Shown here piece after piece: positions 1-18,388 of a DNA stretch of 64,000 bases. The translations under genes and the position numbers were made by a program. A model generated the notes under the pieces. That model had not been told where the DNA came from. It did not search any database and was given only the letters and a program-made list of their open reading frames with translations. The number at the start of each line of letters is the position of its first letter. Within the stretch, counting starts at the first letter, position 1. The stretch comes from Achromobacter xylosoxidans. GTDB taxonomy: Bacteria > Pseudomonadota > Gammaproteobacteria > Burkholderiales > Burkholderiaceae_B. The DNA is taken from assembly GCF_001457475.1 (NCBI RefSeq), contig NZ_LN831029.1:1054001-1118000 (forward strand). The letters are read 5' to 3'.

Positions 1-74
1 TCGGTCAGGTCCACCAGGCGGATGCGGCCCGACACCAGTTCGGTCATGAATTGGGCAAGTATGGGTTGGCTCAT
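1..74 (-). CDS. Cyclase-family (isatin hydrolase/kynurenine formamidase-like) protein, N-terminal fragment
   Basis: Only the first 24 codons lie in the window; the gene continues past the left edge. The start is the ATG at 74, preceded by GGAGCAACAG, a good ribosome-binding site. The peptide contains SGRIRLVDLT, which resembles the conserved N-terminus of the metal-dependent cyclase superfamily (kynurenine formamidase, isatin hydrolase). It follows the OB-SDR gene by 31 bases on the same strand and is probably the last visible gene of the catabolic operon. An isatin hydrolase would open isatin to isatinate, which suits the neighbouring genes. With so little sequence the family call is tentative and the substrate is inferred. 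Confidence 0.5.
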   Translation of the reverse strand, partial: MSQPILAQFMTELVSGRIRLVDLT

Positions 75-105
75 CTGTTGCTCCTTTGGTTTTCGTGTCG
101 GGGCG

Positions 106-1347
106 TCAGGCGCCCAGTTCCCGTTCCAGTCCCTTGGGGTTCTCCGCCAGCCGCGCGCGGAATTCCTGTGCCACGTCGCCGACGTACACGTCCTCGACGC
201 CATCCTTCAGCGCGCGCACGATGGCGCTCGCGATGGCCGCGGGCGCCACGCGCGGGGGCGGCGTGCGCTGCTCCCATTCATGGTCGACCGGGCCGGGGAA
301 CACGTTCACCACGCGCACGCCGGCCGGCCGCATTTCGGCGCGCAGGCATTGCGCCAGCGACAGCGCGGCGGCCTTGGAGGCCGACCACATGCCGCGCGCC
401 GGCAGGTTGAGGTGGGCGTAGATCGACAGCACGTTGACCCAGGCCGTGGCGTTGTTGACGCCGTCGGCGGCGCGGCCGCACAGCGCCGGGCCGAAGCCCT
501 GCGCCAGCCGCATCAGGCCCAGCACGTTGACGTCCAGGGCGTCGCGCGCGGTGTTGACGTCCTTGCGGCCGAGCAGGCCGCCTTCGCGTTCCAGGTCGGC
601 GGTGTTGACCAGGATCTCGACCTTGCCGCCGATCGACGCCGCGGCGCGCTCGACCGAGTCGCTGTCGGTCACGTCCAGCGCCAGCGCCTGCACCCGCGGA
701 TCGGCCGCCAGCGCGTCGAAGCCGGCGTCGCGGCGCCAGGCCTGCGGATCGCCCAGGAACACGGTCGGGCAGCCGGCGTCGAGCAGGGCGCGCGCCACCG
801 CCTGGCCCACCGCCGACTTGCCGTCGGTGACCAGCGCCCGGCGGAATTTCGGATCGCACGAGGTCTCGCGCAGGGTCTTGTCGTCTTCCATATTGGGTGT
901 ATTCCTTTCGGGCAGGGCGATCATCACGGCCTGGCCGCCGCGGTCGAGCTTGAGCGCCAGCCGCACGCGGGCGCCGTCGGCGCAATCCTGGTGCACGTGC
1001 GCCACCACCGACGGGCCGGCGTCCATGCGCACCGTGCCCACCCGCCACGGCAGGCGTTCACGGAAATAGAGGTCGTTGCTGTGGTGCAGCGTGGTGCTGA
1101 CCAGCAGCACGCCGTTGGGATCCACCGGCCGCCACGGCAGGCGTTCCGACAGGCAATGGCCGCAGACTTCGCGCGGCGGGTACTGCACCGCGCCGCAATC
1201 GGCGCAGGTCTGCAGTTCGAAGCGGCCTTCGGCGGCCGCGGCCGTCAGGCCCAGGGCGGCGCGGCTGCGGGCGCCCGGCGGCAGGGTCGGCTGGCGCGTG
1301 CGCGCCACCGGATTCTTGCGCGGCGGCTTGGCTAGCGGCTCGGTCAT
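106..1347 (-). CDS. DUF35/OB-fold acyl-CoA-binding domain fused to a degenerate short-chain dehydrogenase
   Basis: This is a 413-residue two-domain protein. Residues 1-150 form a DUF35 module: a rubredoxin-like zinc ribbon with Cys48, Cys51, Cys62 and Cys65, then an OB fold. DUF35 proteins partner thiolase-like enzymes and bind acyl-CoA. Residues 165-413 are an SDR Rossmann domain. The nucleotide-binding loop is atypical (TDGKSAVG, about 174-181), Ser308 is kept, but the usual YxxxK is WSASK, with Trp321 in place of the catalytic Tyr. The start ATG overlaps the thiolase stop (ATGA). There is no stop between the domains, but an ATG at 891 (Met153), about 10 bases after AAAGGA, could start the SDR part separately. 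Full oxidoreductase activity is doubtful. Confidence 0.75.
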   Translation of the reverse strand: MTEPLAKPPRKNPVARTRQPTLPPGARSRAALGLTAAAAEGRFELQTCADCGAVQYPPREVCGHCLSERLPWRPVDPNGVLLVSTTLHHSNDLYFRERLPWRVGTVRMDAGPSVVAHVHQDCADGARVRLALKLDRGGQAVMIALPERNTPNMEDDKTLRETSCDPKFRRALVTDGKSAVGQAVARALLDAGCPTVFLGDPQAWRRDAGFDALAADPRVQALALDVTDSDSVERAAASIGGKVEILVNTADLEREGGLLGRKDVNTARDALDVNVLGLMRLAQGFGPALCGRAADGVNNATAWVNVLSIYAHLNLPARGMWSASKAAALSLAQCLRAEMRPAGVRVVNVFPGPVDHEWEQRTPPPRVAPAAIASAIVRALKDGVEDVYVGDVAQEFRARLAENPKGLERELGA

Positions 1348-2519
1348 GCGTCGCTCCTGGCCAGGATGGCCGCGGCGGTGCACAGCCCACGGTCGTAGTT
1401 GATCATGCCGAAGCCGCTGACCAGGCCCAGGCGCGCGTCGGCCACCTGCGTGCCGCCGGCGGTGCCGGTCAGCTGGCGCAGCGCCTCGACCATGCCGAGG
1501 TAGCCGCCGGCGGCGCCGGCCTGGCCCACCGACAGCTGGCCGCCGTTGGTGTTGAACGGGAAGCTGCCGTCGACGGTGAAGGTGTTGGCGCGCACGAATT
1601 GCGGCGCCTCGCCCTTGGCGCAGAAGCCCAGGTCTTCCATCTGCATCAGGTTGATGACCGGGTAGTCGTCGTAGGCTTGCAGAAAGTCCATGTCGGCCGG
1701 GGCCGCATCCGCCATGCCGTAGAGTTCGTCGACGTCCATGGTCCAGCCGCCGCGGGTCTGGATCGGATCTTCGATCCAGGCGTTGTGGCGCTCGATGGTG
1801 GACAGGATGCGGGCGTAGGGTAGCTTCAGCGCCCGGGCCCGGTCTTCGCTCATCACCAGGAAGCCGTCGGCGCCGGCGCAGGGCATGACGCAGTCGAACA
1901 GGTGGATCGGGTCGGTGATGACGCGCGCGTCCAGGTATTGCTTGAGGGTCAGCGGCTTTTTCATCAGCGCGTGCGGATAGCGCAGGGCGTTGGCGCGCTG
2001 CGCCACGCAGACCTTGCCGAAGTCCTCGCGGGTGGCGCCGGTGCTGCGCATGTAGTGCGCGGTCAGCAGCGCGAAGCTGGCGTTGGGGCCGCCGGCGCCA
2101 TAGGGGTAGACGGCATCCTGGGCGAAGCGCGAGAACTGGCTGACGGTGTTGCGGAACGAGTCGACCTGGTTGGTGTCGCCCGCGATGCAGGCGACGATGC
2201 CGGCGTCGCCCGCCTGCACCGCGCGCGCGGCGCGGCGCAGCGCGGCCACGCCGCTGGCGCCGCCCATGGGGATGTGGTCGAGCCAGCGCGGGCTCATGCC
2301 CAGGTGCTGCGTCAGGCCCACGGCGGTGTCCGGCGCCAGCGTGAAGCTGGACACGCACAGGCCGTCGACGTCGGTCTTGGCGATGCCGGCCTGGCGGATC
2401 AGCGCGCCCAGCGCGCGGCCCAGCCACCAATGCGCGGCATGGGTGGAGTAGCGCTCATACGGAATGCTGACGGGCAGGGCCGCCACCACGCCGTCGTAGC
2501 GGGCGCGCGGCGTGCTCAT
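1344..2519 (-). CDS. Thiolase-like protein without catalytic Cys (candidate acyl-CoA aldolase/lyase)
   Basis: This 391-residue protein has the SCP2/Ltp thiolase fold. At the position of the nucleophilic Cys (normally CxSG) it reads G87-A-S-G, and the C-terminal GHP motif is GQAG inside GGQLSVGQAG. Family members without the Cys, such as steroid lyase Ltp2, work with a DUF35 partner as retro-aldolases that split beta-hydroxyacyl-CoA into an acyl-CoA and a carbonyl compound. Here a DUF35 domain is encoded immediately downstream with a 4-base overlap, and the CoA ligase overlaps upstream. I infer aldolytic cleavage of a CoA ester, possibly dioxindole-3-acetyl-CoA, rather than thiolysis. The start ATG at 2519 is fixed by the ATGA overlap. 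Confidence 0.8.
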   Translation of the reverse strand: MSTPRARYDGVVAALPVSIPYERYSTHAAHWWLGRALGALIRQAGIAKTDVDGLCVSSFTLAPDTAVGLTQHLGMSPRWLDHIPMGGASGVAALRRAARAVQAGDAGIVACIAGDTNQVDSFRNTVSQFSRFAQDAVYPYGAGGPNASFALLTAHYMRSTGATREDFGKVCVAQRANALRYPHALMKKPLTLKQYLDARVITDPIHLFDCVMPCAGADGFLVMSEDRARALKLPYARILSTIERHNAWIEDPIQTRGGWTMDVDELYGMADAAPADMDFLQAYDDYPVINLMQMEDLGFCAKGEAPQFVRANTFTVDGSFPFNTNGGQLSVGQAGAAGGYLGMVEALRQLTGTAGGTQVADARLGLVSGFGMINYDRGLCTAAAILARSDA

Positions 2520-4147
2520 CGGGCGGGCTCCTGGCGCTTCTTCATGGCGGTGGTGTCGACGCAGCTGGCCGTGCCTGGCAGGGTCGGCGCCAGCGCCTTC
2601 ATTTCGCCGCGCTGGATCTTGTTGGTGGTGGTGAGCGGCAGGCTGTCGACGAAGGCGACGTAGCCGGGCGCCTTGTAATAGGCCAGCTGTTGCAGGCTCC
2701 ACTGCACGATGTCGCGGGCCGCGTCGGCGCGGGCGGCGGCGTCGGCGGGCGCGGTTTCCGCCACCACGCAGGCCAGCACCTCGTCGCCGCGCACCGGGTC
2801 GGGCACGGCGGCCACTGCTACGGCCTTGACCAGCGGATGCTGCAGCAGCACGCTTTCGACTTCCACGGCCGAGATGTTCTCGCCGCTGCGGCGGATCACG
2901 TTCTTCTTGCGGTCGACGAAGCGCAGCGCGCCGTCGGCCTCGCGGCGCACGATGTCGCCGGTGTGGAACCAGCCGTCCTCCCACGCCTGCGAAGTGGCCT
3001 CGGCGTCCTTCAGGTACCCGGCGAAGAAGCCGTAGCGCGGGTCATCGCCGGCATGGCGCACCAGCAGCTCGCCCGGCTCGCCGGCCGCGGCCTCGCCGCC
3101 GTGGTCGGCGACGATGCGCACCTCTACGTCGTCCTCTTCGCGGCCGAAGCAGCTGCTGCCGATGTGGCGCGGCTCCTGGTTGGCGATGATGACGGCCCCG
3201 GCGCCGGTCTCGGTCATGGCCCAGGCTTCCAGCAGCGGGAAGCCGAAGCGTTCCTCGAACGGTTCATGCAGCTTGCGGTCGACGCCGGCGCCGAAGCCGA
3301 AGCGGATCGCCGGCTGCCTGTCCCGGGCCGAGGGTTCGGCCTTCATCAGGATCGCCGGCATCACGCCCAGGTAGTGCAGCACGGTGGCGCCCGAGTCGCG
3401 CACGCTGTCCCACCAGGTCTTGGGATGGAAGCGGTCCAGCGGAATCAGGCAGCCGCCGGTGAGCACCATGGCCATGGCGGAATAGGCCATGGCGTTCATG
3501 TGCACCAGCGGCAGCGGCGTCAGCATGCGTTCCTCGCCGGGGCGCAGCGCGGCCAGGCCGCCGATGCGGGCGTACCAGCCGCCCGCGTGCAGAAAATAGC
3601 GGTTCGGCAGGATGCAGCCCTTGGGACGGCCGGTCGTGCCGGACGTGTACAGCAGCGCGCACTCGGTCAGTTCATCCGGCTCGCCCGCCAGCGGCGCGGG
3701 GAAGGGCGCGGCGGGCGGGGCGTCGTCCGGCCCCATCACGCGCAGCGGCCGGCCGGCGCGCTCGGCGGCGGCTAGCAGGTCGGCGTGGCGCTCGGGCAGG
3801 GCCACCGCCAGCGCGATTTCGGAATGGCCGGTCAGGTACTCCAGTTCGGCCGCGCGCAGGTCGGGATTGATCGGCACCACCGACACGCCCAGCGCGTTGA
3901 GCGCGAACCAGTGCAGGAAGAAGGCGGGACGGTTTTCCAGCAGCAGGCCGGCGCGGTGGCCGTGGCCGTAACCGGCGCGGGCATAGGCCGCGCGCAGCGT
4001 CTCGATGGCGCTGGCCGCCTGGGCGTAGGTCAGCTCGCCGGCGCCGATGCCATAGATGGCGGCGGTTTCCGGCAGGATGCACAGGAAGGGCCGGGCGCCA
4101 TGCCGGGCCGCGGTGTCCAGAAAAGCCTGGTGGACGGTGGGGCTCAC
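2516..4147 (-). CDS. AMP-dependent acyl-CoA synthetase/ligase
   Basis: This is a 543-residue ANL-superfamily enzyme that activates a carboxylic acid as an acyl-adenylate and transfers it to CoA. The AMP-binding P-loop YTSGTTGRPKG lies at residues 167-177, followed by the AWAMTETG A5 motif, GWFHTGDI, and the C-terminal hinge and Lys region (DRKKNVIRRSGENIS, then NKIQRGEMK). Length is typical. Its end overlaps the thiolase start by four bases, and it begins 9 bases after the dioxygenase beta stop, so it is translationally coupled in the operon. The likely role is CoA activation of the oxygenated aromatic acid before C-C cleavage. The substrate cannot be read from the sequence. Confidence 0.9.
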   Translation of the reverse strand: MSPTVHQAFLDTAARHGARPFLCILPETAAIYGIGAGELTYAQAASAIETLRAAYARAGYGHGHRAGLLLENRPAFFLHWFALNALGVSVVPINPDLRAAELEYLTGHSEIALAVALPERHADLLAAAERAGRPLRVMGPDDAPPAAPFPAPLAGEPDELTECALLYTSGTTGRPKGCILPNRYFLHAGGWYARIGGLAALRPGEERMLTPLPLVHMNAMAYSAMAMVLTGGCLIPLDRFHPKTWWDSVRDSGATVLHYLGVMPAILMKAEPSARDRQPAIRFGFGAGVDRKLHEPFEERFGFPLLEAWAMTETGAGAVIIANQEPRHIGSSCFGREEDDVEVRIVADHGGEAAAGEPGELLVRHAGDDPRYGFFAGYLKDAEATSQAWEDGWFHTGDIVRREADGALRFVDRKKNVIRRSGENISAVEVESVLLQHPLVKAVAVAAVPDPVRGDEVLACVVAETAPADAAARADAARDIVQWSLQQLAYYKAPGYVAFVDSLPLTTTNKIQRGEMKALAPTLPGTASCVDTTAMKKRQEPAR

Positions 4148-4156
4148 AAGCCGCTC

Positions 4157-4648
4157 CTACATGAACAATTGGATGTTGCCGAATGCGGCGTCGCAGTTCA
4201 CCAGGTCGACGCGCTTGAGGCGGATGCGCAGCGCGCCGTCCTGCTCGACCAGATGATGCGTGGCCCAGCCGGCGTACAGGGTCTGCGCGTCCTGGCGCGT
4301 TTCGACGTAGTGGAAGGCGGTGCGCACCACATGGCGACCCTGCCCGGGCGCCGAGTCGGGATGGTCGCGTTCGACCGTGGGCGCCTGTAGCAGGTGATGG
4401 CAACGGCTCTTGGGTTGCTGCGAGAAGGTGCGCTGGCCCGCCAGGCGCTCGACCCGCACGCGCAGCAGCAGCTTGTCCTCGTACATCAGCGAGGCGTGCA
4501 GGCGGGCGTCGGTCTGGCCGTGGGCCAGCGGCATCCAGTAGTGGCCGTCCTCGGTGTACAGATCCAGCCAGTCCTCGAAGCGCAGCTCGTCGAGCAGGCG
4601 CGCCTCGGCGTAGACGAAATCGATCAGGTCGCGGTCGCTCAAGCTCAT
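4157..4648 (-). CDS. Aromatic-ring-hydroxylating dioxygenase, beta (small) subunit
   Basis: This 163-residue protein has the NTF2-like cone fold of Rieske oxygenase small subunits. Recognisable segments are FVYAEARLLDE, the WLDLYTEDGHYWMP strand region and the closing FGNIQLF. It is non-catalytic and stabilises the alpha3beta3 oxygenase. The ATG at 4648 overlaps the alpha-subunit stop (ATGA), which fixes the start and supports paired synthesis. A longer reading that begins upstream inside the alpha gene is rejected because it lacks family similarity. Confidence 0.9.
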   Translation of the reverse strand: MSLSDRDLIDFVYAEARLLDELRFEDWLDLYTEDGHYWMPLAHGQTDARLHASLMYEDKLLLRVRVERLAGQRTFSQQPKSRCHHLLQAPTVERDHPDSAPGQGRHVVRTAFHYVETRQDAQTLYAGWATHHLVEQDGALRIRLKRVDLVNCDAAFGNIQLFM

Positions 4649-5958
4649 GCCTGCTCCGTCATGTAGCGGCCCCATGCGCGGTACTGGTTGCGCATCTGCC
4701 ATTCGTTGGTGCCGTTGGTGGTGACGTTCTTCTGGCCGAGCTCGGCCGGGTCGTACAGGCGGCCGACGTTGACCCAGTCGCGGGCGCGCGATTGCAGGCC
4801 GTCCTGGGCGCGCTCGTACATCTCCAGGTCGTCATGGCCGACCACCGAGGTGGGCGCGTTGATCAGGCGGTTGTACATGAGGGTGCGTTCCAGCAGCAGG
4901 TCGGGCGCGCCGACCAGGCGGAAGGTCCACGACTCCACCAGGGTGCGGTCGGCGGCGATCGGCTTGAACACGCGCAGGGTCTGGATCGGGCCCTTGACCA
5001 TGATGTTGGGGAAGTACACGGTGTTGTGGCGCACGTCGCCCAGGATCTGGCGGGCGCGCTCCTCGCCGTAGGCGGCGACCATCGACTCCCAGTAACCCGG
5101 AATGCCCGAATAGGCGGCGTGGATCGAATCGGACACGCCGGTGTGTCCGTGGCCGTTTTCCCAGACGCGGATGCCCATGTTCTCGAAGAACTCATAGGGC
5201 GAGATGAACGGCGCGAACAGTTCCACCGCCATCGGCTTGGGCGTGCCGGCCGGGGCCTGTTCCCACACCTTCACCGCCGTGCCGGCCGATGATTCGTGCG
5301 CCACCATCGGGTGGCAGGTGTCGGTCTGGTTGTCGACCAGCATCTTCCAGTTGCAGCGGTGCATGTAGCGCAGCACGCCGCCGGCAACTTCCAGCCGGCC
5401 CTCGGGCGAGCGGTCGACCATGTTGTCCAGCGTCGACAGCGCGTCGCCGAAGAAGTCCTCGAACGACTGGCCGACGGGATTCAGGCGGCAGAACACGAAG
5501 CCGCGGTGGTTGCGCACGTCTTTCACCGCCGCCATGCCCTGGCTGGCCTCGCACTGCTCCAGGCCGGTGTTCTCATAGCCCTTTTTCAGCGGGATCGACA
5601 GCAGGCTGCCGTCGGTCTTGAAGGTCCAGGCGTGATAGGGACAGCGGAAGAACTTGCCGGTGTTGCCGCAGGCGTCGCCCGCCACCATGGTGCCCTTGTG
5701 CGGACAGCGGTTGTGCAGCACGCGCACCGAGCGGTCGCTGTGGCGCACCATCACCACCGGCTGGTTGCCGACGGTGGTGGTGATGTAGTCGCCGGGGTTG
5801 GGCACCTGGCTGTCGTGGCCGACGTAGACCCAGGTGTTGGCGTACAGCCGTTCCATCTCCAGGTCGAACAGTTCATCGTCGATGAACAGGTCCTTGTGCA
5901 CCTCGGTCTCGCGCAGCAAGGCGCGGATGGCATCGGGGTTGTCGCGGTATTTGACCAT
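4645..5958 (-). CDS. Rieske aromatic-ring-hydroxylating dioxygenase, alpha subunit
   Basis: This is a 437-residue oxygenase large subunit. The Rieske [2Fe-2S] ligands are Cys85, His87, Cys106 and His109 (CPH, then CPYH). The mononuclear iron site is DNQTDTCHPMVAH, with the electron-bridging Asp213 and ligands His216 and His221. It inserts dioxygen into an aromatic substrate using electrons from the reductase encoded next to it. The start ATG at 5958 follows GAGGAGACC at good spacing; a longer frame upstream is not family-like. Overlap with the beta gene and its place in a CoA-ligase/thiolase/IOR operon recall IacC/IadD-type indole-acetate dioxygenases. Indole-3-acetate as substrate is inferred. 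Confidence 0.93.
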   Translation of the reverse strand: MVKYRDNPDAIRALLRETEVHKDLFIDDELFDLEMERLYANTWVYVGHDSQVPNPGDYITTTVGNQPVVMVRHSDRSVRVLHNRCPHKGTMVAGDACGNTGKFFRCPYHAWTFKTDGSLLSIPLKKGYENTGLEQCEASQGMAAVKDVRNHRGFVFCRLNPVGQSFEDFFGDALSTLDNMVDRSPEGRLEVAGGVLRYMHRCNWKMLVDNQTDTCHPMVAHESSAGTAVKVWEQAPAGTPKPMAVELFAPFISPYEFFENMGIRVWENGHGHTGVSDSIHAAYSGIPGYWESMVAAYGEERARQILGDVRHNTVYFPNIMVKGPIQTLRVFKPIAADRTLVESWTFRLVGAPDLLLERTLMYNRLINAPTSVVGHDDLEMYERAQDGLQSRARDWVNVGRLYDPAELGQKNVTTNGTNEWQMRNQYRAWGRYMTEQA

Positions 5959-5984
5959 CGTGGTCTCCTCTTCTCGCGCCCGGC

Positions 5985-6962
5985 CTACAGGTCCAGCACC
6001 AGGCGCGCCGACTTGGCGCGCGAGATACAGATCTGGATGATCTTGCCGCTGGCTTTCTCGGTATCCGACAGGTAGTAATCGCGGTGGTCCGGCTCGCCTT
6101 CCAGCACGGTGGCTTGGCAAACGCCGCATTCGCCGCGCTTGCAGTCGTACATCGGGTCGCAGCCTTCTTCTTCCATCACCTCGACGATGGTCTTGTCGGC
6201 GGGAATGGTCAGCACCCGGCCGGACTGGCGCAGCTCGACCTCGAAGGGCTGGTCGCCGGCCTGCGGCGCGGCGCTGGTGAACAGTTCGAAATGGATGTGG
6301 GCGTCGGGCCAGTGGCGCGCGCGCGCTTCCTGGATGACGGCGTCTATCAGGCCCTTGGGACCGCAGACGTACAGATGCTGGCGTGGACTGGCGGCGTCCA
6401 GCAGCGCCTTCAGGTCGAAGCGGCAGGAGGGATCATCGTCGGCGTGCAGCACCAGCGCGTCGCCGGCCAGCGCCTGCAGTTCCGGCAGGAAGGCCAGTTG
6501 GTCGCGGCTGCGGCCGCTGTAGTGCAGTTCGAAGGCGCGGTTGGCGGACTTGAGCGCCGCCGCCATCGACGCCACCGGCGTGATGCCGATGCCGCCGGCG
6601 ATCAGCACCACCGGCTCGTCGCCGGCCGGGCCCTCGTGCAGCGGGAAATCGTTCTTTGGCCCTTCGACGCTGAGCGTGTCGCCCACTGCCAGGCCATGCA
6701 TGTGGCGCGAGCCGCCCGCGCTGGCTTCTTCCAGCCGCACGCCCAGGCGGTATTCGACGGGTTCGGCGAAGCGGCCGGCTTCCGGCGCCAGTTGCACCAG
6801 CGAGTAGCAGCGCGGTTCGCGCAGGCCCGGCACGCTGACCTTCAGGTGGGCGCCGGGGCCGAAGGCGGGCAGGGCGCCGCCGTCTTCGCGCGCCAGGCGC
6901 AGCGAGCGGATCAGCGGCGATTCCTGCCGGACTTCACGGACGATGAGTTTCAGGGTTTGCAC
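5985..6962 (-). CDS. Rieske oxygenase reductase (FMN/NAD domain plus C-terminal 2Fe-2S ferredoxin, VanB type)
   Basis: This 325-residue phthalate-dioxygenase-reductase-type protein moves electrons from NAD(P)H to the Rieske oxygenase. It has a flavin-binding RCYSL motif at 51-55, a nucleotide-binding GGIGITP around 123-129, CGPKGL at 200-205, and a plant-type [2Fe-2S] ferredoxin domain with Cys274, Cys279, Cys282 and Cys312. The start is GTG at 6962 with GAGACGAAC upstream; no better ATG exists near the domain start. It lies 26 bases upstream of the alpha-subunit gene, so oxygenase and reductase form one functional set. Confidence 0.92.
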   Translation of the reverse strand: MQTLKLIVREVRQESPLIRSLRLAREDGGALPAFGPGAHLKVSVPGLREPRCYSLVQLAPEAGRFAEPVEYRLGVRLEEASAGGSRHMHGLAVGDTLSVEGPKNDFPLHEGPAGDEPVVLIAGGIGITPVASMAAALKSANRAFELHYSGRSRDQLAFLPELQALAGDALVLHADDDPSCRFDLKALLDAASPRQHLYVCGPKGLIDAVIQEARARHWPDAHIHFELFTSAAPQAGDQPFEVELRQSGRVLTIPADKTIVEVMEEEGCDPMYDCKRGECGVCQATVLEGEPDHRDYYLSDTEKASGKIIQICISRAKSARLVLDL

Positions 6963-6984
6963 GGCGTTCGTCTCTATCTCGATG

Positions 6985-8529: not shown

Positions 8530-8540
8530 GGGGCGGGTCC

Positions 8541-10766: not shown

Positions 10767-11137
10767 CTCGAACTCCTCCACGCGGACCGGCATCCGGGTC
10801 CCGAAGCCATGCTGCTGCGCAGCACGCCCATGTCACGAAATTTCGCTCTGAAAAATACTTTAGGAGTCAACGTTTTAGCTGTCAACAAAAAAGATGAAAT
10901 TTCATGGAATCAAAAAAATATCACGCTAAAACAAGGGTGTATATACTGGTTGTTCTCTATCCGAAGGGCCGGGAAAAGGCGCTTTGATGGTGCAAAAACG
11001 GGTTGCGATTCGGGGTATACCCTGTGCTGCGCAACAGCATTGCGCCGCGTCATGGCGCAGGCCGGCGCCAACGTGGTGCAATGCGCCTGCCGGCCTCGGG
11101 TCGCCTATTCAATATTGATGCGTGGGAGCAGAACAAC
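10767..11137. promoter_or_regulatory. Divergent control region with palindromes (oxidoreductase operon versus marR)
   Basis: This 371-base gap is AT-rich between about 10835 and 10980, unlike its GC-rich surroundings. It contains the 10-base palindrome CGAAATTTCG at 10836-10845 and the 12-base palindrome ATGAAATTTCAT at 10894-10905. They share the core GAAATTTC with centres 59 bases apart. Two further palindromes are GTATATAC at 10939-10946 and GGGTATACCC at 11013-11022. The divergent MarR gene suggests that some of these are its operators. No gene is visible in the gap. Confidence 0.6.
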
Positions 11138-11629
11138 ATGCGGTCGGACAAGCACGGCGATACCCTGGCCGGCGGCGCGCGGTTCGTCGACGACTACCTG
11201 GCCTACCTGCTGGCGCAGGCCAGCCAGCGCATTTCGGCGGAGTTCCACCAGCAGGTGAAGGCGGCCGGCCTGTCGGTCACCGAATGGCGGGTGCTGGCCA
11301 GCCTGGAAGGCAGCGCGGGCGAGACCATCGGCGACCTGGCGGTGCTGGCCATCACCAAGCAGCCGACGCTGAGCAAGGTGGTGCAGCGCATGGAGGCCGA
11401 AGGGCTGGTGGCGCGCAACGGGGTGCGCGCCGACCGGCGCCAGACCCGGGTCTGCATCACCACCAAGGGCCGTAACCTCATTGCCGCGCTGTGCGAGCAG
11501 GCGAAGCAGCACCAGAAGGCGGTGCTGGCCCCTTTCGGCGAAGAAAAGGCCGCCCTGCTGATTGACATGCTGCGGGTGCTGATGACCGAGCATGTGCCGC
11601 TCGACCTGCCGCTGGAGGCCGACGAGTAG
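11138..11629 (+). CDS. MarR-family transcriptional regulator
   Basis: This 163-residue winged-helix regulator has the typical MarR layout: an N-terminal dimer helix (DDYLAYLLAQASQRIS), the recognition region LAVLAITKQPTLSKVV, and the wing with conserved basic DRRQTRVCITTKGR. Such proteins usually repress an adjacent catabolic or efflux operon and release DNA when an aromatic ligand binds. It is transcribed divergently from the oxidoreductase operon and upstream of the ABC importer. The start ATG at 11138 follows GGGAGCAGAACAAC; an in-frame upstream extension is not family-like. iad loci are known to be controlled by MarR proteins, which fits the proposed function. Confidence 0.92.
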   Translation: MRSDKHGDTLAGGARFVDDYLAYLLAQASQRISAEFHQQVKAAGLSVTEWRVLASLEGSAGETIGDLAVLAITKQPTLSKVVQRMEAEGLVARNGVRADRRQTRVCITTKGRNLIAALCEQAKQHQKAVLAPFGEEKAALLIDMLRVLMTEHVPLDLPLEADE

Positions 11630-11854
11630 GGCGGCACCGGCCGCCAGGGGCCGAGCCCTTGATGAGGCGCGTTGCGGTCGGGTGAACACCGTTTACATCA
11701 AGAGAACAGCGATTTTTTTGTCATATTTTTATACGTCCCTAAATAGGTTCTCCCTGGGAAAACCCCCTCCGGTACGCATAAACCCTTAATTGACGCGGGT
11801 CTTGGCGCTAGGCAATATCGCGCCGGTATTCAGACTACAGTCAGGAGTTGAACC

Positions 11855-13426
11855 ATGCGCCGCACTTTGATTGCCATCGCGATCGCCGCCGCCGTGGCCG
11901 TGCCCTCGATCGGGCAGGCCAAGACCTTCCGTTGGGCCGCCCAGGGCGACATCCTCACCTTCGATCCGCACTCGCAGAACGAAGGCATGACGATCGCCGC
12001 CAACAGCTATGTCTATGAACCGCTGGTGGACTACGACAAGGACTTCAAGGTGGTGCCGCGCCTGGCAACCGAATGGCAGCAGGTTTCGCCCACGCTGTAC
12101 CGCTTCAAGCTGCGTCCCGGCGTCAAGTTCCACGACGGCGCCGCCTTCACGGCCGACGACGTGGTGTTCTCGGTGCATCGCGCCATGGCGCCCACCTCGA
12201 ACTACAAGGCCTACACCACCGGCATCAAGGAAGCGCGCAAGATCGACGACCTGACGGTCGAGATCGAGACCACGGCGCCCAACCCGGTGCTGCTGCGCCA
12301 GCTGCCCAACGTGTTCATCATGAACAAGGCCTGGTCGGAGAAGAACAACATCGCCAAGCCGCAGGACTTCGTCAACAAGGAAGAGACCTACGGCGCGCGC
12401 AACACCAACGGCACCGGCCCGTACAAGCTGAAGTCGCGCGAAGTCGACGTGCGCACCGTGTTCGAAGAAAACAAGGACTGGTGGAACAAGGCCGGCAAGG
12501 TCGGCAACGTGACCGAAGTGGTGTTCACGCCGATCAAGCAGAACGCCACGCGCACCGCGGCGCTGCTGTCCGGCGAGATCGACTTCGTGCTCGACCCGGC
12601 CGCGCAGGATCTGGACCGCCTGCGCCAGTCGGCCAAGGTGGTCGAGGGCAACGAGTACCGCACCATCTACCTGGGCCTGGACCAGAAGCGTCCCGAGCTG
12701 CAGTATTCCAACATCAAGGGCAAGAACCCGTTCCAGGACATCCGCGTGCGCGAGGCGCTGTACCGCGCCATCGACGTCGACGCCATCAAGCGCGCCGTGA
12801 TGCGCGGCCTGTCGGCGCCCACCGGCACCATGATCGCGCCGCAGGTCCACGGCTGGACCGAGTCGCTGCACAAGCGCGTGCCCTACGATCCCGAAAAGGC
12901 CCGCGCCCTGCTCAAGGAAGCCGGCTACGACGGCACCCTGAACTTCACGCTCGACTGTCCCAACAACCGCTACATCAACGACGAAGCCATCTGCCAGGCC
13001 GTGGTCGGCATGTGGGCCAAGGTGGGCGTGAAGGCGACCATGAACGCCATGCCGCGTTCGACCTACTTCCCCAAGGTGCAGAGCTCCGACACCAGCGCCT
13101 ACCTGTTCGGCTGGGGCGTGCCCACGTTCGACGCCATGTACACGCTGCAGAACCTGATCCGCACCAAGGGCGAGGGCGCGGACGGCATGTACAACCTGGG
13201 CAACTACAGCAACAAGGAACTGGACGCGATCATCGACCGCATCAAGACCGAAACCGACGCGGCCAAGCGCGACGCCGACATCCACAAGGTGCTGGAAGTG
13301 CATGCCAAGGAATTCGGCCACATCCCGCTGCACGACCAGGTCATTCCCTGGGCCATGCGCAAGAACGTGTCGGTGATCCACCGCGCGGACAACCGCCTCG
13401 TTGCCGACTGGGTCAAGGTCGACTGA
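11855..13426 (+). CDS. ABC transporter substrate-binding protein, family 5 (peptide/opine/solute type)
   Basis: This is a 523-residue periplasmic binding protein (SBP_bac_5). Residues 1-22 form a Sec signal peptide ending SIGQA, followed by KTFRWA. The family signature region is RLATEWQQVSPTLYRFKLRPG with FHDGAAFTADDVVFS. It captures the solute for the permeases and ATPases encoded downstream. The start ATG at 11855 follows CAGGAGTTGAACC. The 225 bases upstream contain an AT-rich stretch (about 11700-11765), the likely promoter. Family 5 proteins carry peptides, nickel or glycosides, so the ligand is unknown; proximity to the MarR/dioxygenase locus suggests an aromatic acid or conjugate. Confidence 0.9.
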   Translation: MRRTLIAIAIAAAVAVPSIGQAKTFRWAAQGDILTFDPHSQNEGMTIAANSYVYEPLVDYDKDFKVVPRLATEWQQVSPTLYRFKLRPGVKFHDGAAFTADDVVFSVHRAMAPTSNYKAYTTGIKEARKIDDLTVEIETTAPNPVLLRQLPNVFIMNKAWSEKNNIAKPQDFVNKEETYGARNTNGTGPYKLKSREVDVRTVFEENKDWWNKAGKVGNVTEVVFTPIKQNATRTAALLSGEIDFVLDPAAQDLDRLRQSAKVVEGNEYRTIYLGLDQKRPELQYSNIKGKNPFQDIRVREALYRAIDVDAIKRAVMRGLSAPTGTMIAPQVHGWTESLHKRVPYDPEKARALLKEAGYDGTLNFTLDCPNNRYINDEAICQAVVGMWAKVGVKATMNAMPRSTYFPKVQSSDTSAYLFGWGVPTFDAMYTLQNLIRTKGEGADGMYNLGNYSNKELDAIIDRIKTETDAAKRDADIHKVLEVHAKEFGHIPLHDQVIPWAMRKNVSVIHRADNRLVADWVKVD

Positions 13427-13448
13427 CCCCGCCCCGGCTAACCAGACA

Positions 13449-13476
13449 GCGAAGCCCCGCGGGGCTTCGCCGTTTT
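13449..13476 (+). terminator. Intra-operon hairpin with short U-run (likely attenuator)
   Basis: A perfect 22-base palindrome (13449-13470, arms GCGAAGCCCCG/CGGGGCTTCGC) is followed by CGTTTT. It sits between the binding-protein stop and the first permease start, a place where partial termination commonly gives excess binding protein over membrane components. Confidence 0.7.
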
Positions 13477-13489
13477 GCCTTTCCCGCCT

Positions 13490-14479
13490 ATGTTTGCTTT
13501 CATACTGCGTCGCCTGTTGCAGGCCGTAGCGGTGATGCTCACCGTCGCGCTACTGGCCTTCGTGCTTTTCCAATACGTCGGCGACCCTGTCACCATCATG
13601 CTGGGGCAGGACGCCACCGATGCCGAGCGCATCGAGCTGCGTGAGCGCCTGGGGCTGAACGAGCCCGCCATCGTCCAGTTCGGCCATTTCGTGGCCAACG
13701 CCGCGCAGGGCAATTTCGGCATTTCCCTGCGCCAGAGCGAACCGGTCTCGAGCCTGCTCAAGTCGCGCCTGCCGGCCACGCTGGAGCTGTCCCTGGTGGC
13801 GGCCCTGCTGGCGCTGGTGGTGGGCGTGCCGCTGGGCGTGTACACCGCGCTCAAGCGCAACAGCCTGCTGTCGCAGCTGCTGCTGGCCGGTTCGCTGCTG
13901 GGCGTGTCGTTGCCGACCTTCCTGATCGGCATCCTGCTGATCCTGGTGTTCTCGGTGCAACTGGGCTGGCTGCCCAGTTACGGCCGTGGCGACACCGTGG
14001 CGCTGGGCTGGTGGACCTCGGGCCTGTTCACCGCCAATGGCTGGAAGCACCTGATCCTGCCGTCGATCACGCTGTCGCTGTTCCAGATGACGCTGGTGCT
14101 GCGGCTGGTGCGCTCCGAAATGCTGGAGGTGCTGCGTTCGGACTACATCAAGTTCGCCCGCGCCCGCGGCCTGAAGCGGCGCGCCATCCATTTCGGCCAC
14201 GCGCTCAAGAACACCATGGTGCCCGTCATCACCATCACCGGCCTGCAGCTGGGCGGCATCATCGCCTTCGCCATCGTGACCGAGACGGTGTTCCAGTGGC
14301 CCGGCATGGGGCTGCTGTTCATCCAGGCGGTGCAATTCGCCGACGTGCCGGTGATGGCCGCGTACCTGTGCCTGATCGCGCTGGTGTTCGTGGTGATCAA
14401 CCTGATCGTCGATCTTCTGTATTTTGTCGTGGACCCGCGCCTGCGCTCCGGGCTGACCCGCGGCGGAGGTGGCCACTGA
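13490..14479 (+). CDS. ABC transporter permease (DppB/OppB type)
   Basis: This 329-residue membrane protein has about six transmembrane segments and begins MFAFILRRLLQAV, the characteristic start of DppB/OppB permeases. The EAA loop, which contacts the ATPases, reads EVLRSDYIKFARARGLK (about residues 210-226). It forms one half of the translocation channel. The ATG at 13490 is chosen because it matches the family N-terminus; a TTG 15 bases earlier is possible. Its stop overlaps the next start (TGATG). Confidence 0.92.
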   Translation: MFAFILRRLLQAVAVMLTVALLAFVLFQYVGDPVTIMLGQDATDAERIELRERLGLNEPAIVQFGHFVANAAQGNFGISLRQSEPVSSLLKSRLPATLELSLVAALLALVVGVPLGVYTALKRNSLLSQLLLAGSLLGVSLPTFLIGILLILVFSVQLGWLPSYGRGDTVALGWWTSGLFTANGWKHLILPSITLSLFQMTLVLRLVRSEMLEVLRSDYIKFARARGLKRRAIHFGHALKNTMVPVITITGLQLGGIIAFAIVTETVFQWPGMGLLFIQAVQFADVPVMAAYLCLIALVFVVINLIVDLLYFVVDPRLRSGLTRGGGGH

Positions 14480-15393
14480 TGCGCGCCGTTCTGAAACGCT
14501 GGTGGGACAGCGACATTGCCTGGGCCTGGCGCCGGGCGCCCGTGGCTATCGTCGCCACCGTCATGCTGGCGCTGCTGCTGATCGGTTCCTTCGGCGCCGG
14601 CTGGGTGGCGCCGCACAATCCGTTCGACCTGACCAAGGTCGAGCTGCTGGACGCGTTGTTGCCGCCGGCCTGGTCGCCCAACGGCCAGTCGACCTATCTG
14701 CTGGGCACCGACAGCCAGGGCCGCGACCTGTATTCGGCGATCCTGTACGGCACCCGCGTGTCGCTGCTGATCGGCCTGGCCTCGGTGCTGCTGTCGATGC
14801 TGATCGGCATCGTGCTGGGGCTGATCTCGGGCTACGCCGGCGGACGCATCGATGCCTTCATCATGCGCATCGCCGACGTGCAACTGTCGTTCCCGGCGAT
14901 CCTGATCGCGCTGCTGATCGATGGCGTGGCGCGCGCGGCGGTGCCGCGCGAGCTGCACGAGATCATCGCGTTCCCGGTGCTGATCGGCGCCATCGCGCTG
15001 GCCGGCTGGCCGCAGTACGCGCGCACGGTGCGCGGTTCGACCCTGGTGGAAAAGAACCGCGAATACGTGCAGGCGGCGCGCGTGATCGGCGTGGCTTCGC
15101 CCGTCATCATGTTCCGCCACGTGCTGCCCAACGTGCTGGGGCCGGTGCTGGTGCTGGCCACCGTGCACCTGGCGACCGCCATCATCACCGAGGCGACGCT
15201 GTCGTTCCTGGGGGTTGGGGTGCCGCCGACGGCGCCGTCGCTGGGCACGCTGATCCGCATCGGCAACGATTTCCTGTTTTCCGGCGAATGGTGGATCACC
15301 ATCTTCCCGGGCGCGGCGCTGGTGCTGCTGGTGCTGTCGGTCAACCTGCTGGGCGACTGGCTGCGCGACGCATTGAATCCACGCCTGAATTAG
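14479..15393 (+). CDS. ABC transporter permease (DppC/OppC type)
   Basis: This 304-residue partner permease has an N-terminal cytoplasmic stretch, a transmembrane segment near residues 22-42, and the DppC hallmark LLGTDSQGRDLYSAILYGTR (about 74-93). The EAA loop reads LVEKNREYVQAARVIG. It pairs with the preceding permease to form the channel. The start overlaps the upstream stop by one base. It ends 10 bases before the first ATPase gene. Confidence 0.92.
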   Translation: MRAVLKRWWDSDIAWAWRRAPVAIVATVMLALLLIGSFGAGWVAPHNPFDLTKVELLDALLPPAWSPNGQSTYLLGTDSQGRDLYSAILYGTRVSLLIGLASVLLSMLIGIVLGLISGYAGGRIDAFIMRIADVQLSFPAILIALLIDGVARAAVPRELHEIIAFPVLIGAIALAGWPQYARTVRGSTLVEKNREYVQAARVIGVASPVIMFRHVLPNVLGPVLVLATVHLATAIITEATLSFLGVGVPPTAPSLGTLIRIGNDFLFSGEWWITIFPGAALVLLVLSVNLLGDWLRDALNPRLN

Positions 15394-15403
15394 AGATATA
15401 CCC

Positions 15404-16384
15404 ATGAGCGCATTACTTGAAGTCCGCAATCTGCGCGTCGAGTTTCCGACGCGCCGCGGCACGCTACGCGCCCTGGACGACGTGTCCTTTTCGATCCAGG
15501 CGGGCGAAGTCCTGGGCGTGGTGGGGGAATCGGGCGCCGGCAAGTCGCTGACCGGCGCGTCGATCATCGGCCTGCTGGAACCGCCTGGCCGCATCGCGGC
15601 CGGCGAGATCCTGCTGGCGGGCCGGCGTATCGACAACCTGCCCGACGAGCAGATGCGCCGCGTGCGCGGCCGCGAGATCGGCGCGGTGTTCCAGGATCCG
15701 CTGACCTCCCTGAATCCGCTGTACACGGTGGGCCGGCAACTGGCCGAGACCATCGTGACGCATCTGGACATGAGCTGGTCGCAGGCGCGCAACCGCGCGG
15801 TCGAGCTGCTGGCGGCCACCGGCATCCCGGCGGCGCGCGAGCGTATCGATCATTACCCGCACCAGTTCTCGGGCGGCATGCGGCAGCGTGTGGTGATCGC
15901 GCTGGCGCTGGCGGCCGAGCCGAAATTGGTGGTGGCGGACGAGCCGACCACGGCGCTGGACGTGTCGATCCAGGCGCAGATCATCGAGCTGCTCAAGCGC
16001 CTGTGCCGCGAGCAGGGCACGGCGGTGATGCTGATCACGCACGACATGGGCGTGATCGCGGAAACGGCGGACCGGGTGGCGGTGATGTACGCGGGACGCG
16101 TGGCCGAGATCGGCCCCGTGCGCGACGTCATCCACCAGCCGCGCCATCCGTACACGATGGGGCTGATGGGATCGATCCCGTCGCTGCAAGGGCATGCCGA
16201 GCGGCTGGTGCAGATCGATGGCAGCATGCCGCGCCTGAACGCGATTCCGCCGGGCTGTGCCTTCAATCCGCGTTGCGGCCGGCGCCTGCCGCGCTGCGGC
16301 CAGGACCGGCCCGAACTGATGCCGGCGGGCACGTCCCGCGCGGCCTGTTGGTTGCATGAAAACGAAGTCGAGGTGACGCCATGA
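15404..16384 (+). CDS. ABC transporter ATP-binding protein (DppD/OppD type)
   Basis: This 326-residue ATPase powers the importer. Walker A is GESGAGKS (about residues 43-50), the Q-loop region is [11 protein letters not shown], the signature is FSGGMRQRV, and Walker B is [12 protein letters not shown]. The C-terminal oligopeptide-transporter extension includes a Cys-containing segment (CAFNPRC...CGQDRPE) that binds an iron-sulfur cluster in some relatives. It overlaps the second ATPase gene by four bases. Confidence 0.94.
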
Positions 16385-17376
16385 GCACGCCGTTGGTGGA
16401 AGTGAAGGACGCGGCGCGCTGGTTCGATGTGTCGCCGCCCTGGCTGGAGCGCAAGCTGGCGGGCAAGCCGCGGGTGATGCTGCGCGCGGTGGACGGCGTG
16501 TCGTTCGAGATCAATCGGGGCGAGACACTGGCGCTGGTGGGCGAGTCGGGCTGCGGCAAGTCGACGGTGGCGCGCATGCTGGTGGGGCTGTATGGGCTGA
16601 CGCGTGGCGACATCCGTTTCGACGGCCAGCCGCTGTCGCGCATGTCGGAGCCGGGCGGGCGCGAGCTGCGCAAGCGGCTGCAGATGATTTTCCAGGATCC
16701 GTACGCGAGCCTGAATCCGCGCTGGCGCGTCGGCCGCATCATTGCCGAGCCGATGCTGACGCATACGAAAATGACGCCGGCCGAGCGCACGGCGCGGGTC
16801 GGCGATCTGCTCAGGCAGGTGGGGCTGGATCCGGCCGACCAGAGCCGTTATCCGCACCAGTTCTCGGGCGGGCAGCGCCAGCGCATTTCGATCGCGCGGG
16901 CGCTGGCGGTGAATCCGGAGTTCCTGGTGTGCGATGAGCCGACCTCGGCGCTGGATGTGTCGGTGCAGGCGCAGGTGCTGAACCTGATGAAGGACCTGCA
17001 GCGCGAGCTGGGGCTGACCTATCTGTTCATTTCGCACAATCTGGCGGTGGTGCATCACGTGGCCGATCGGGTCGGGGTGATGTATCTGGGGCGGATGGTG
17101 GAGGTGGCGCCGCGCGACGAGCTGTTCGCGCGGCCGCGGCATCCGTATACGCGGATGCTGCTGGCGGCGATTCCGGATATCGATGGGACCGGGAAGCCGC
17201 GCACTGCGGTGGCGGGGGAAGTGCCGAATCCGTTGAATCCGCCGTCGGGGTGCACGTTTCATCCTCGGTGTCCGCATGCGAATGAGCGGTGCAGGGGGGA
17301 GGCGCCTGTGGCTCGGGTGGCGGGAGTGGCGGTGGTGGCTTGCCATGCGGTGGAGGAGGGGCGGATTGCGGGGTGA
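16381..17376 (+). CDS. ABC transporter ATP-binding protein (DppF/OppF type)
   Basis: This 331-residue second ATPase of the importer has Walker [10 protein letters not shown] (about 54-62), Q-loop [10 protein letters not shown], signature FSGGQRQRI and Walker [12 protein letters not shown]. The C-terminal extension contains the paired Cys residues of the family ([10 protein letters not shown]...RC). It heterodimerises with the preceding ATPase. It is the last gene of the five-gene operon; codon use near its 3' end becomes slightly more G-rich than its neighbours. Confidence 0.94.
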
Positions 17377-17866: not shown

Positions 17867-18388
17867 TCAGTGGCGATGACCCGGATCGTTGTGGTCGTGA
17901 GCGTGGTCGTGGGCGTCGTCCTCGTCCTCGTCGTCTTCTTCCTCGTCTTCCTCATCCGGGTCGGGCAGGGGTTCCTCGGTCAGGGCGAAGGGCAGGACAT
18001 CTTCCAGGTTGTCGGACCAGGCGGATTCCTCGCCGTCGTGGTCGAGCTTGATGAAGCGTTCGCCTTCGTTCAGCGAGATCTGGATGGCCCAGAGGTAGAG
18101 GCAGTCGTAGGTGTCGTCGCCGCTCTGGGGCAGGCCGCCGCGGTTGCCGAGCAGGCGGGCGCCGGGGCCGCCCAGCTGGACGTGGGTCTGGTCTTCGTCG
18201 GGTTCGGCGTTTTCGTCGATGGGCACGCCGTAGGTGACCCATTCGGTGCCTTCTTCGCCCAGCACGACTTCGGCCAGGACGGGCTTGCCCAGGTAGGCGC
18301 TGAGGGCGTCGGCGGTCTTGGCGAGCATGTCCAGTTCGGTCGCGCTGAAGTGGGTCAGGGAAGGCGGGGGCGTGGCGGAGGCGGACAT
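17867..18388 (-). CDS. Conserved acidic protein with Asp/Glu- and His-rich C-terminal tail
   Basis: This 173-residue cytosolic protein has no signal peptide or membrane segment. Residues 1-140 look like a compact alpha/beta domain (LTHFSATELDMLAKTADALS; DCLYLWAIQISLNEG). From about residue 142 the chain is almost purely acidic (PDEEDEEEDDEDEDD) and then His/Asp-rich (AHDHAHDHNDPGHRH). Such a tail could bind divalent metals or solubilise the protein. I do not recognise a named family. The neighbouring AraC gene is on the same strand but 110 bases upstream, so co-regulation is uncertain. Translation from the ATG at 18388 is well supported by coding bias. Confidence 0.7.
   Translation of the reverse strand: MSASATPPPSLTHFSATELDMLAKTADALSAYLGKPVLAEVVLGEEGTEWVTYGVPIDENAEPDEDQTHVQLGGPGARLLGNRGGLPQSGDDTYDCLYLWAIQISLNEGERFIKLDHDGEESAWSDNLEDVLPFALTEEPLPDPDEEDEEEDDEDEDDAHDHAHDHNDPGHRH

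Follow-up and report, generated by a model that had tools for sequence, protein, structure and literature searches.

The left end of the 64,000-nucleotide stretch analysed here (the window, positions 1054001-1118000 of the 6.81-Mb single-contig genome of Achromobacter xylosoxidans) holds a compact operon on the minus strand, transcribed away from a MarR gene; it is a real iad-type locus for the catabolism of indole-3-acetate (IAA). The locus itself is already known from Variovorax, Bradyrhizobium and Achromobacter, and the value added here is a testable assignment of its middle steps. The favoured reading, with a probability of roughly 0.78, is that of an iad-type IAA locus in which the thiolase-like protein IadG and its DUF35 partner IadH carry out a redox-neutral retro-aldol step, IadI hydrolyses isatin, and IadAB acts on isatinate. 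The missing nucleophile of IadG, the apparently dead short-chain dehydrogenase/reductase (SDR) domain of IadH, the similarity of IadI to isatin hydrolases and the co-occurrence of the genes together argue that dioxindole-3-acetyl-CoA is probably split redox-neutrally into isatin and acetyl-CoA, and not reductively.

Considering the pathway as a whole, IadR would repress the locus and release it on binding IAA, as shown in Variovorax, while IadCDE would oxygenate IAA and IadJ would oxidise the product to dioxindole-3-acetate, as published for the same genus. IadF would then form the CoA ester of dioxindole-3-acetate, and IadG, held by the DUF35 half of IadH, would split this ester into isatin and acetyl-CoA in a retro-aldol reaction that uses Tyr283 as the base. 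The SDR half of IadH would be a pseudo-dehydrogenase, hence the redox-neutral character of the proposed cleavage. Finally, IadI would hydrolyse isatin to isatinate, as its strong homology suggests, and the thiamine diphosphate (ThDP) enzyme IadAB may decarboxylate isatinate oxidatively to anthranilate or anthraniloyl-CoA, the weakest step of the scheme. Such an arrangement would explain why a thiolase-like protein without cysteine nucleophile is found together with a DUF35 domain and an isatin hydrolase.

Gene content and order of the iad locus

The iad locus occupies window positions 1-11629, with iadR divergent from iadA-H; iadI starts at position 74 and extends, followed by iadJ-N, beyond the window. 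Past the left edge (locus slice L006) are found the cyclase-family iadI, the classical SDR iadJ, and a periplasmic binding protein with a branched-chain-type ABC importer (iadK-N). The features of the locus are as follows.

1-74, minus strand: iadI, first 24 codons (start codon at 74; whole gene 262 aa, L006:15289-16077, minus strand, PF04199)
106-1347, minus strand: iadH, DUF35-SDR fusion, 413 aa (zf-ChsH2 and OB_ChsH2_C, PF12172 and PF01796, then SDR)
1344-2519, minus strand: iadG, thiolase-like protein (PF22691; PDB and Foldseek matches)
2516-4147, minus strand: iadF, acyl-CoA ligase (PF00501 and PF13193; position as in the published iad)
4157-4648, minus strand: iadE, oxygenase beta subunit (PF00866)
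4645-5958, minus strand: iadD, Rieske oxygenase alpha subunit (PF00355 and PF00848; Variovorax ortholog)
5985-6962, minus strand: iadC, NAD(P)H:acceptor reductase with a 2Fe-2S domain (PF00175, NAD_binding_1; PF00111, Fer2)
6985-8529, minus strand: iadB, similar to the beta subunit of indolepyruvate:ferredoxin oxidoreductase (IOR), with a C-terminal DUF6537 (PF01558, POR; PF20169; NF006179)
8541-10766, minus strand: iadA, IOR-alpha-like ThDP subunit (PF02775, TPP_enzyme_C)
10859-10886, plus strand: twin direct repeat TTTAGNNGTCAAC (copies 10859-10871 and 10874-10886), candidate IadR operator between iadA and iadR
11138-11629, plus strand: iadR, MarR repressor by its best PDB matches, 7kki and 7kfo

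The resulting gene order, R / A B C D E F G H I J K L M N, is that of the published iad set, described in Achromobacter as iadABCDEFGHIJKLMNR (PMC11630574, PMC9613470). Thus, the set iadR-iadABCDEFGHIJK is present in order, including iadA and iadB, which are the markers of iad loci (PMC9613470), and IadD is orthologous to a proven IAA oxygenase. The genes occur in identical order in many related genomes, indicating that the arrangement is not due to chance. In addition, iadH was found in 42 of the 43 genomes of the genus Achromobacter, the single miss being a genome that is 57% complete, and the nearest named relatives of IadG, within the best 80 of at least 562 relatives, belong to Achromobacter dolens, A. 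ruhlandii and A. pulmonis (97-98%).

A sequence-only reading of the window had recognised a MarR-controlled iad-type locus leading from IAA to anthranilate. The genes that it named are present as long open reading frames (ORFs) with fitting Pfam domains, in a contiguous operon divergent from MarR and adjoined by an ABC importer, and its assignment is strongly supported by gene order and content and by the protein-by-protein comparison with iad that it had called for, where the best PDB matches were Variovorax IadD (9o71, 7yls), Variovorax IadR (7kki, 7kfo) and, for IadI, isatin hydrolase (5nmp, 5nna). The known locus was correctly recognised from the letters alone, although one step is outdated and a fusion went unnoticed; the cyclase gene that it listed is present (PF04199), with only its first 74 bases within the window. 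As for the ligase, the release of isatin and acetyl-CoA, the isatin hydrolase and the IOR-like decarboxylation, these proposals fit the homology, the invariant residues and the co-occurrence described below, and we infer them on that basis.

IadG as a putative retro-aldolase

By sequence, the best PDB match of IadG is CtSal (9myr, E 6e-50), followed by 4u4e and Ltp2 (6ok1). The AlphaFold model (pLDDT 85.4) gives a related ranking in Foldseek, with Sal-Shy(DUF35) first at 2e-26 and Ltp2-ChsH2(DUF35) at ranks 2-3, the next matches being SCP2-thiolase-like proteins from 3e-23 and SCP2 thiolases from 3e-21, so that the margin is modest. IadG has the thiolase fold without the nucleophilic Cys and carries the catalytic Tyr of the YDxx motif (Y283), as do Ltp2 and Sal; the earlier description of a thiolase lacking cysteine holds for the nucleophile, other cysteines being present.

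Conservation was counted over proteins no shorter than 75% of the query, with identical rows merged into one copy, which reduced the sets from 124 to 112 for IadG, 110 to 100 for the IadH SDR domain, 122 to 110 for DUF35, 120 to 108 for IadI, 90 to 80 for IadJ and 92 to 80 for IadD; some genomes in these sets were reached by two routes. Both Gly86-Gly87, at the site of the lost nucleophile, and the motif Y283-D-D-Y are invariant in 112/112 distinct IadG sequences. In Sal, Gly replaces the nucleophilic Cys, hence no thiolysis takes place, and the Tyr of YDxx is the base (PMC12329534). Residue matching to Sal, counted along the sequence alignment with an inferred chain-number offset of 24, puts Asp285 of IadG at Sal Cys304 and Gln328 and Gln333 at the flanking Sal Gln347 and Gln352, each in 112 of 112, and a direct alignment with Ltp2 puts Gly335 at Ltp2 Tyr344.

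These features suggest that IadG likely works like Ltp2 and Sal, and possibly constitutes a third subfamily of DUF35-dependent retro-aldolases. Dioxindole-3-acetyl-CoA would be a tertiary beta-hydroxyacyl-CoA, the substrate pattern of Ltp2, and its retro-aldol cleavage would yield isatin and acetyl-CoA.

IadH, a DUF35 domain fused to a putative pseudo-dehydrogenase

IadH consists of a DUF35 region (zinc ribbon and OB fold) at about residues 1-148 and an SDR domain at about 165-413 (AlphaFold pLDDT 89.3). The DUF35 partner expected by the sequence-only reading is therefore present as a domain, at the N-terminus of a 413-aa fusion and not as a separate gene, the SDR domain having been missed. 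The four Cys of the zinc ribbon are kept in 110/110 sequences, as in a C4 zinc ribbon and OB fold partner (PF12172, PF01796). A precedent for DUF35 on another enzyme domain is the MaoC-DUF35 protein Shy (PMC11321319). All 50 Foldseek matches listed for IadH were of SDR type, and this search thus did not probe the DUF35 half.

Regarding the SDR half, the position of the catalytic Tyr is occupied by W in 53, Y in 15, F in 13, T in 7, H in 7 and other residues in the remaining five of the 100 distinct sequences, and the Lys is kept in 44. Tyr and Lys occur together in only 5 of 100, compared to 80/80 in IadJ, an SDR control from the same loci that keeps Tyr, Lys and TGxxxGxG throughout. The cofactor motif reads TDG[KR] in most IadH sequences instead of TGxxxGxG. 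The window protein itself departs from a classical SDR, having W and K at the YxxxK dyad and TDGKSAVG at the cofactor site. On a quick tree, parsimony requires 8 changes of the Tyr state.

Within Achromobacter, purifying selection acts on the SDR half, which is therefore not simply decaying: its dN/dS is 0.08-0.18 against six Achromobacter relatives, compared to 0.05-0.21 for DUF35 and 0.06-0.24 for IadJ, with values of 0.18 and 0.42 against two Bordetella-group loci (L038, L063). Values for iadG against L071 and L077 were left out as an alignment-shift artefact (identity 0.09).

A DUF35 protein without the SDR domain was found in eleven rows, which amount to nine distinct loci, two having been reached twice; they include Alcaligenes, Paenalcaligenes and Schauerella. 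In eight of the nine, iadJ comes directly after it, and the protein of L110 ends in a linker remnant. On the retro-aldolase reading, half of IadH should be dispensable, which is what these Alcaligenes relatives suggest; Alcaligenes strains other than those compared here have been described to convert IAA to anthranilate via isatin (PMC8383072). Moreover, the Variovorax-like genome G607, whose IadD is 94% identical to 9o71 and which stands in for the IadH of V. paradoxus CL014, has Phe at the Tyr position. Hence the SDR half is inferred to be a conserved pseudo-dehydrogenase that looks catalytically dead, and a reductive role of IadH is unlikely because the dyad is mostly lost, the domain is absent from nine loci and G607 carries Phe; a role as scaffold or structural partner fits better.

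Two further ideas about IadH were rejected. An intact SDR dyad is not linked to a missing IadJ, as loci without J show Y/K, H/H, L/N and Y/E alike. Likewise, loci with a standalone DUF35 do not lack IadAB: A and B were missing only in 20-kb slices, where their presence had seemed tied to that of the SDR domain, and were found outside the slice in 8/8 genomes searched.

Probable isatin hydrolysis and the IadAB enzyme

The best PDB match of IadI is isatin hydrolase 5nmp (E 1e-116), followed by 5nnb, 5nna and 4j0n, with similarity over nearly the full length. The HxGTHxDxPxH motif of these enzymes is present, and H-x-G-T-H-F-D-A-P-x-H-W is conserved in 108/108 distinct relatives. Meanwhile, IadI reaches only 27.7 bits against the arylformamidase model, whose cut-off is 223. 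Isatin, isatinate and dioxindole have been detected in Variovorax cultures (PMC9613470).

IadA scores 264.3 bits against the curated IOR_alpha model, below the cut-off of 650.9, while IadB scores 709 bits against NF006179 (cut-off 348). Their co-occurrence with the downstream genes, described below, places IadAB downstream, favouring isatinate over indolepyruvate as the substrate. In agreement with this, compounds of the formulae C8H7NO3 (isatinate) and C7H7NO (aminobenzaldehyde) are reported to pile up in a Variovorax strain overexpressing iadC-K2 without iadAB (PMC12633357). A second IadA/IadB pair (55% and 38%) is encoded in G607. As a separate observation, nine genomes of one genus (G189, G191-G198) carry a 70-71% IadA match and no iadH match, and IadAB may have a second context there.

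Gene co-occurrence and a seam at dioxindole-3-acetate

Of 25 genomes with the core, 24 have a locus with G, I and either H or a DUF35 protein alone, and G062 has only G and DUF35 matches. An IadA match, at 64-72% identity and in one or two pieces, was found in 25/25, even where it lies far from the core, and IadB adjoins IadA in all 25. Second copies of IadA reach 55-57% in three of the 25 and up to 67% in some genomes of the family. Across the family, IadA (E<=1e-120) is present in 97/97 iadH-positive genomes (iadH match at E<=1e-40) compared to 17/171 iadH-negative ones (Fisher p ~1e-55, uncorrected for ancestry).

The oxygenase, followed genome-wide through its subunit IadD, behaves differently. 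No IadD match at E<=1e-60 was found in 10 of 15 genomes, with only a 36% match in an eleventh (G1027). For IadJ, 11 of 13 genomes gave no match at E<=1e-50, namely the same ten and G1027. The ten, namely Rhizobium lusitanum, two Neorhizobium, Xaviernesmea, Mesorhizobium, Ochrobactrum, G111, G112, G902 and G1013, keep a CoA ligase, G-H-I and IadAB (IadA and IadB in 10/10), although the ligase near the core is only a distant relative of IadF (33-35%) in some loci. D and J are lost jointly while G, H, I, A and B stay, which suggests a seam at dioxindole-3-acetate. At the level of locus slices, which extend up to about 10 kb on each side with some contigs shorter, 28 of 123 carry DUF35/IadH without D, 10 of the 28 having an Opp/Dpp importer; three Bradyrhizobium-like genomes lacking D on the slice carry it further away.

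From this pattern, we tentatively propose, at somewhat less than even odds, that F-G-H-I-A-B forms a self-standing module for dioxindole-3-acetate (dioxIAA), the form of auxin that the plant itself has oxidised, with a third family of DUF35-dependent retro-aldolases at its centre, their DUF35 being carried by a dead dehydrogenase. This module would be joined to the IAA oxygenase and IadJ in iad loci, and would occur without detectable IadD/IadJ in rhizobia and others, often beside an Opp/Dpp importer, possibly letting them feed on dioxIAA made by plants or on conjugates of it with amino acids. Plants form dioxIAA as a catabolite of auxin, and its Asp and Glu conjugates are described in rice roots (PMC10390838, PMC11936858). 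Beyond gene content, there is little to support the idea: an Opp/Dpp importer beside several loci without D and an M20 peptidase beside one (L145). The oxygenase-free module points to bacteria that may live on auxin already inactivated by the plant, of which no report appeared among the matches listed in the literature search.

An oxygenase common to the loci without D was looked for, and none was seen in the selection of ORFs scanned; L131 has two flavin reductases and L138 a GMC oxidoreductase. Around F-G-H-I of Ochrobactrum (L145:1130-17566) are a copper amine oxidase, two aldehyde dehydrogenases, the M20 peptidase and a further CoA ligase, which looks like a wider region for the catabolism of indole amines or amides. 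In R. lusitanum, the CoA ligase and iadG are separated by an OsmC-family gene (L124:9567-9995), with an ORF of similar size at that place in L120 and L185. In Schauerella (L056:15387-19123), iadI is shifted behind the transporter genes, and the gene after it is flavin amine-oxidase-like, perhaps for a feeder reaction.

Oxygenation of IAA and the regulator IadR

The top PDB matches of IadD are 9o71 (V. paradoxus IadD, E 2e-199) and 7yls (E 2e-197), while the third, a 3-phenylpropionate dioxygenase, reaches only E 2.5e-44. IadD is 63% identical to the V. paradoxus chain 9o71 (9o71 as query), and the columns of the Rieske C/H residues and of D213, H216 and H221 are invariant in 80 distinct relatives. 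As described for V. paradoxus, iadC-K2 is enough for the conversion of IAA to anthranilate, IadCDE acts as a monooxygenase, IadJ then gives dioxindole-3-acetate (C10H9NO4), and deletions of F, G, H or I pile up this compound (PMC12633357). The sequence-only reading had let a dioxygenase make dioxindole-3-acetate directly, which is superseded by the published monooxygenase and its completion by IadJ, a gene off the window and out of that reader's sight. In the Variovorax-like G607 (L163, L172), two more IadD-like oxygenases were observed, one 54% identical to the window IadD inside the iad neighbourhood and one 45% identical on another contig.

Regarding the regulator, the best PDB matches of IadR are the Variovorax MarR_73 structures 7kki and 7kfo. 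The IAA contacts of MarR_73 are Y15, A18, S28, H32, W45, R46 and V65 (PMC9613470), and in the alignment with it five of the seven are identical in IadR (Y15, S28, H32, W45, R46), with A18 replaced by Y and V65 by L. IadR is a MarR repressor and likely an IAA sensor. Within the iadA-iadR gap, 13 aligned Achromobacter and Bordetella loci share a conserved block. It contains the TTTAGNNGTCAAC repeat, with a 15-base period, which has 2 matches in 64 kb compared to 0.01 expected; 9 of the 13 loci retain both copies exactly, and 4 a single exact copy. The twin repeat at 10859-10886 is proposed as a candidate IadR operator. A palindromic MarR operator was also sought between iadA and iadR and set aside, as only short inverted repeats are present and the conserved block holds the direct repeat. 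The same TTTAGNNGTCAAC pair is seen upstream of iadC in Schauerella (L056:3482-3509).

Alternative readings and counter-evidence

In the published view for V. paradoxus, IadF activates, IadG is a ketothiolase and IadH an alcohol dehydrogenase, the side chain being reductively removed to dioxindole, with IadI as an amidase acting later. This view is backed by the metabolite patterns of deletion and overexpression strains, where the iadI deletion, as well as a strain with C-H, J and K2 without I, accumulates C8H7NO2 (dioxindole formula), with isatin not among the products reported (PMC12633357). In the same source, the middle steps were assigned from annotation, IadI being annotated as a kynurenine formamidase and the "reductive removal" to C8H7NO2 being a proposal (PMC12633357). 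The reductive route nevertheless appears quite unlikely, as IadG has Gly at the thiolase nucleophilic Cys, the YxxxK of IadH is not intact in 95 of 100 distinct relatives and shows Phe at Tyr in G607, the SDR domain is missing from nine distinct loci, and IadI is closest to isatin hydrolases, not to formamidases. No paper proposing a retro-aldol step for iad was among the matches listed from an open-access library, and the main text of PMC12633357 holds no word starting with aldol, DUF35 or decarboxyl.

IadAB could instead act upstream, converting indole-3-pyruvate to IAA or indoleacetyl-CoA and feeding the pathway from tryptophan, without acting on isatinate. In favour of this, both subunits belong to the indolepyruvate oxidoreductase superfamily, and iadC-K2 without iadAB still gives anthranilate (PMC12633357). 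It is, however, rather doubtful considering that IadA falls under the IOR_alpha cut-off, that IadAB is kept in 10/10 genomes with G-H-I and no IadD match, where feeding IAA has no known purpose, and that the isatinate- and aminobenzaldehyde-formula compounds accumulate in the overexpressing strain lacking iadAB. Finally, the resemblance of IadG and DUF35 to steroid side-chain aldolases might suggest a merely iad-like locus for another substrate, such as a steroid or another indole acid; this is highly improbable, since IadD, IadR and IadI each best match IAA or isatin proteins, five of the seven IAA contacts of IadR are kept, and an IAA-degrading Achromobacter strain reportedly switches on its iad operon in the presence of IAA (PMC11630574).

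Several points weigh against the redox-neutral route with IadAB on isatinate. The general acid of Ltp2 (Tyr344) or of Sal (Cys304) is absent from IadG in the alignments, and therefore IadG is neither Ltp2 nor Sal. Tyr is kept in fifteen of 100 IadH sequences and both residues in five, and the domain may therefore retain activity in some members. The accumulation of a compound of dioxindole formula means that the favoured reading needs an off-pathway reduction of isatin, and Bradyrhizobium work places dioxindole before isatin. In addition, an iadC-K2 fragment without iadAB restored anthranilate in Variovorax (PMC12633357); our guess is that a second IadA/IadB pair like that of G607, or another enzyme, covers the missing genes, and the pile-up in the iadC-K2 strain may itself stem from overexpression. 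This restored anthranilate, together with the apparently dead SDR domain of IadH, is also overlooked by the earlier suggestion that each gene has one job. Moreover, the co-occurrence partly reflects shared ancestry.

Whether root bacteria are able to clear auxin and rescue root growth depends on the iad locus, which is also being transferred to other root-associated bacteria (PMC12633357).

Neighbouring importer and other features of the window

Beside iadR lies an Opp/Dpp-type ABC importer, observed there although the operon has its own branched-chain-type importer.

11855-17376, plus strand: Opp/Dpp-type ABC importer (SBP_bac_5, two BPD_transp_1, two ATPases with oligo_HPY)
11855-13426, plus strand: substrate-binding protein of the importer (Pfam)
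13475-14479 and about 14539-15393, plus strand: permeases (Pfam)
15404-16384 and 16381-17376, plus strand: ATPases (Pfam)

The substrate-binding protein adjoins iadR at >=90% identity in 15/15 Achromobacter loci extending that far, and likewise in 2 Bordetella loci. Conjugates of auxin with amino acids would be a fitting substrate. Further along the window, at 17867-18388 on the minus strand, a 173-aa protein without Pfam match has an acidic tail and a His-rich C-terminus, like a metal-binding tail.

Comparison with known systems

Compared to the iad loci of Variovorax paradoxus CL14/CL014, Achromobacter and Bradyrhizobium (PMC9613470, PMC12633357, PMC11630574), the window locus is alike in gene content and in the order R / A B C D E F G H I J K. 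It differs from the iad of the Variovorax-like G607 slice, where no Opp/Dpp-type importer was seen, in having one beside iadR, and is otherwise ordinary. The steps assigned here to G, H, I and A-B depart from those of the V. paradoxus preprint (PMC12633357).

IadI resembles isatin hydrolase A/B (5nmp, 5nna, 4j0n; PMC6117287) over nearly its full length, including the His-rich motif, with no notable difference, and the operon context is IAA catabolism. With IOR, IadAB shares the ThDP alpha and POR-type beta subunits, whereas IadA lies under the IOR_alpha cut-off, IadB carries DUF6537, and the proposed substrate is isatinate.

As for Ltp2-ChsH2(DUF35) and Sal-Shy(DUF35) (6ok1, 9myr; PMC12329534, PMC11321319), IadG is alike in the thiolase fold, the absence of the nucleophilic Cys and the YDxx Tyr, and the IadG-IadH pair has in common with them the DUF35 zinc-ribbon partner and the beta-hydroxyacyl-CoA logic. 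Besides these similarities, the motif of IadG is YDDY compared to YDHF/YDCY in Ltp2/Sal, its Gln333 stands at Sal Gln352, the residue that takes the place of the Ltp2 acid Tyr344, the DUF35 of IadH is fused to a putative pseudo-SDR and not to the MaoC domain of Shy, and the substrate proposed for IadG-IadH is an oxindole.

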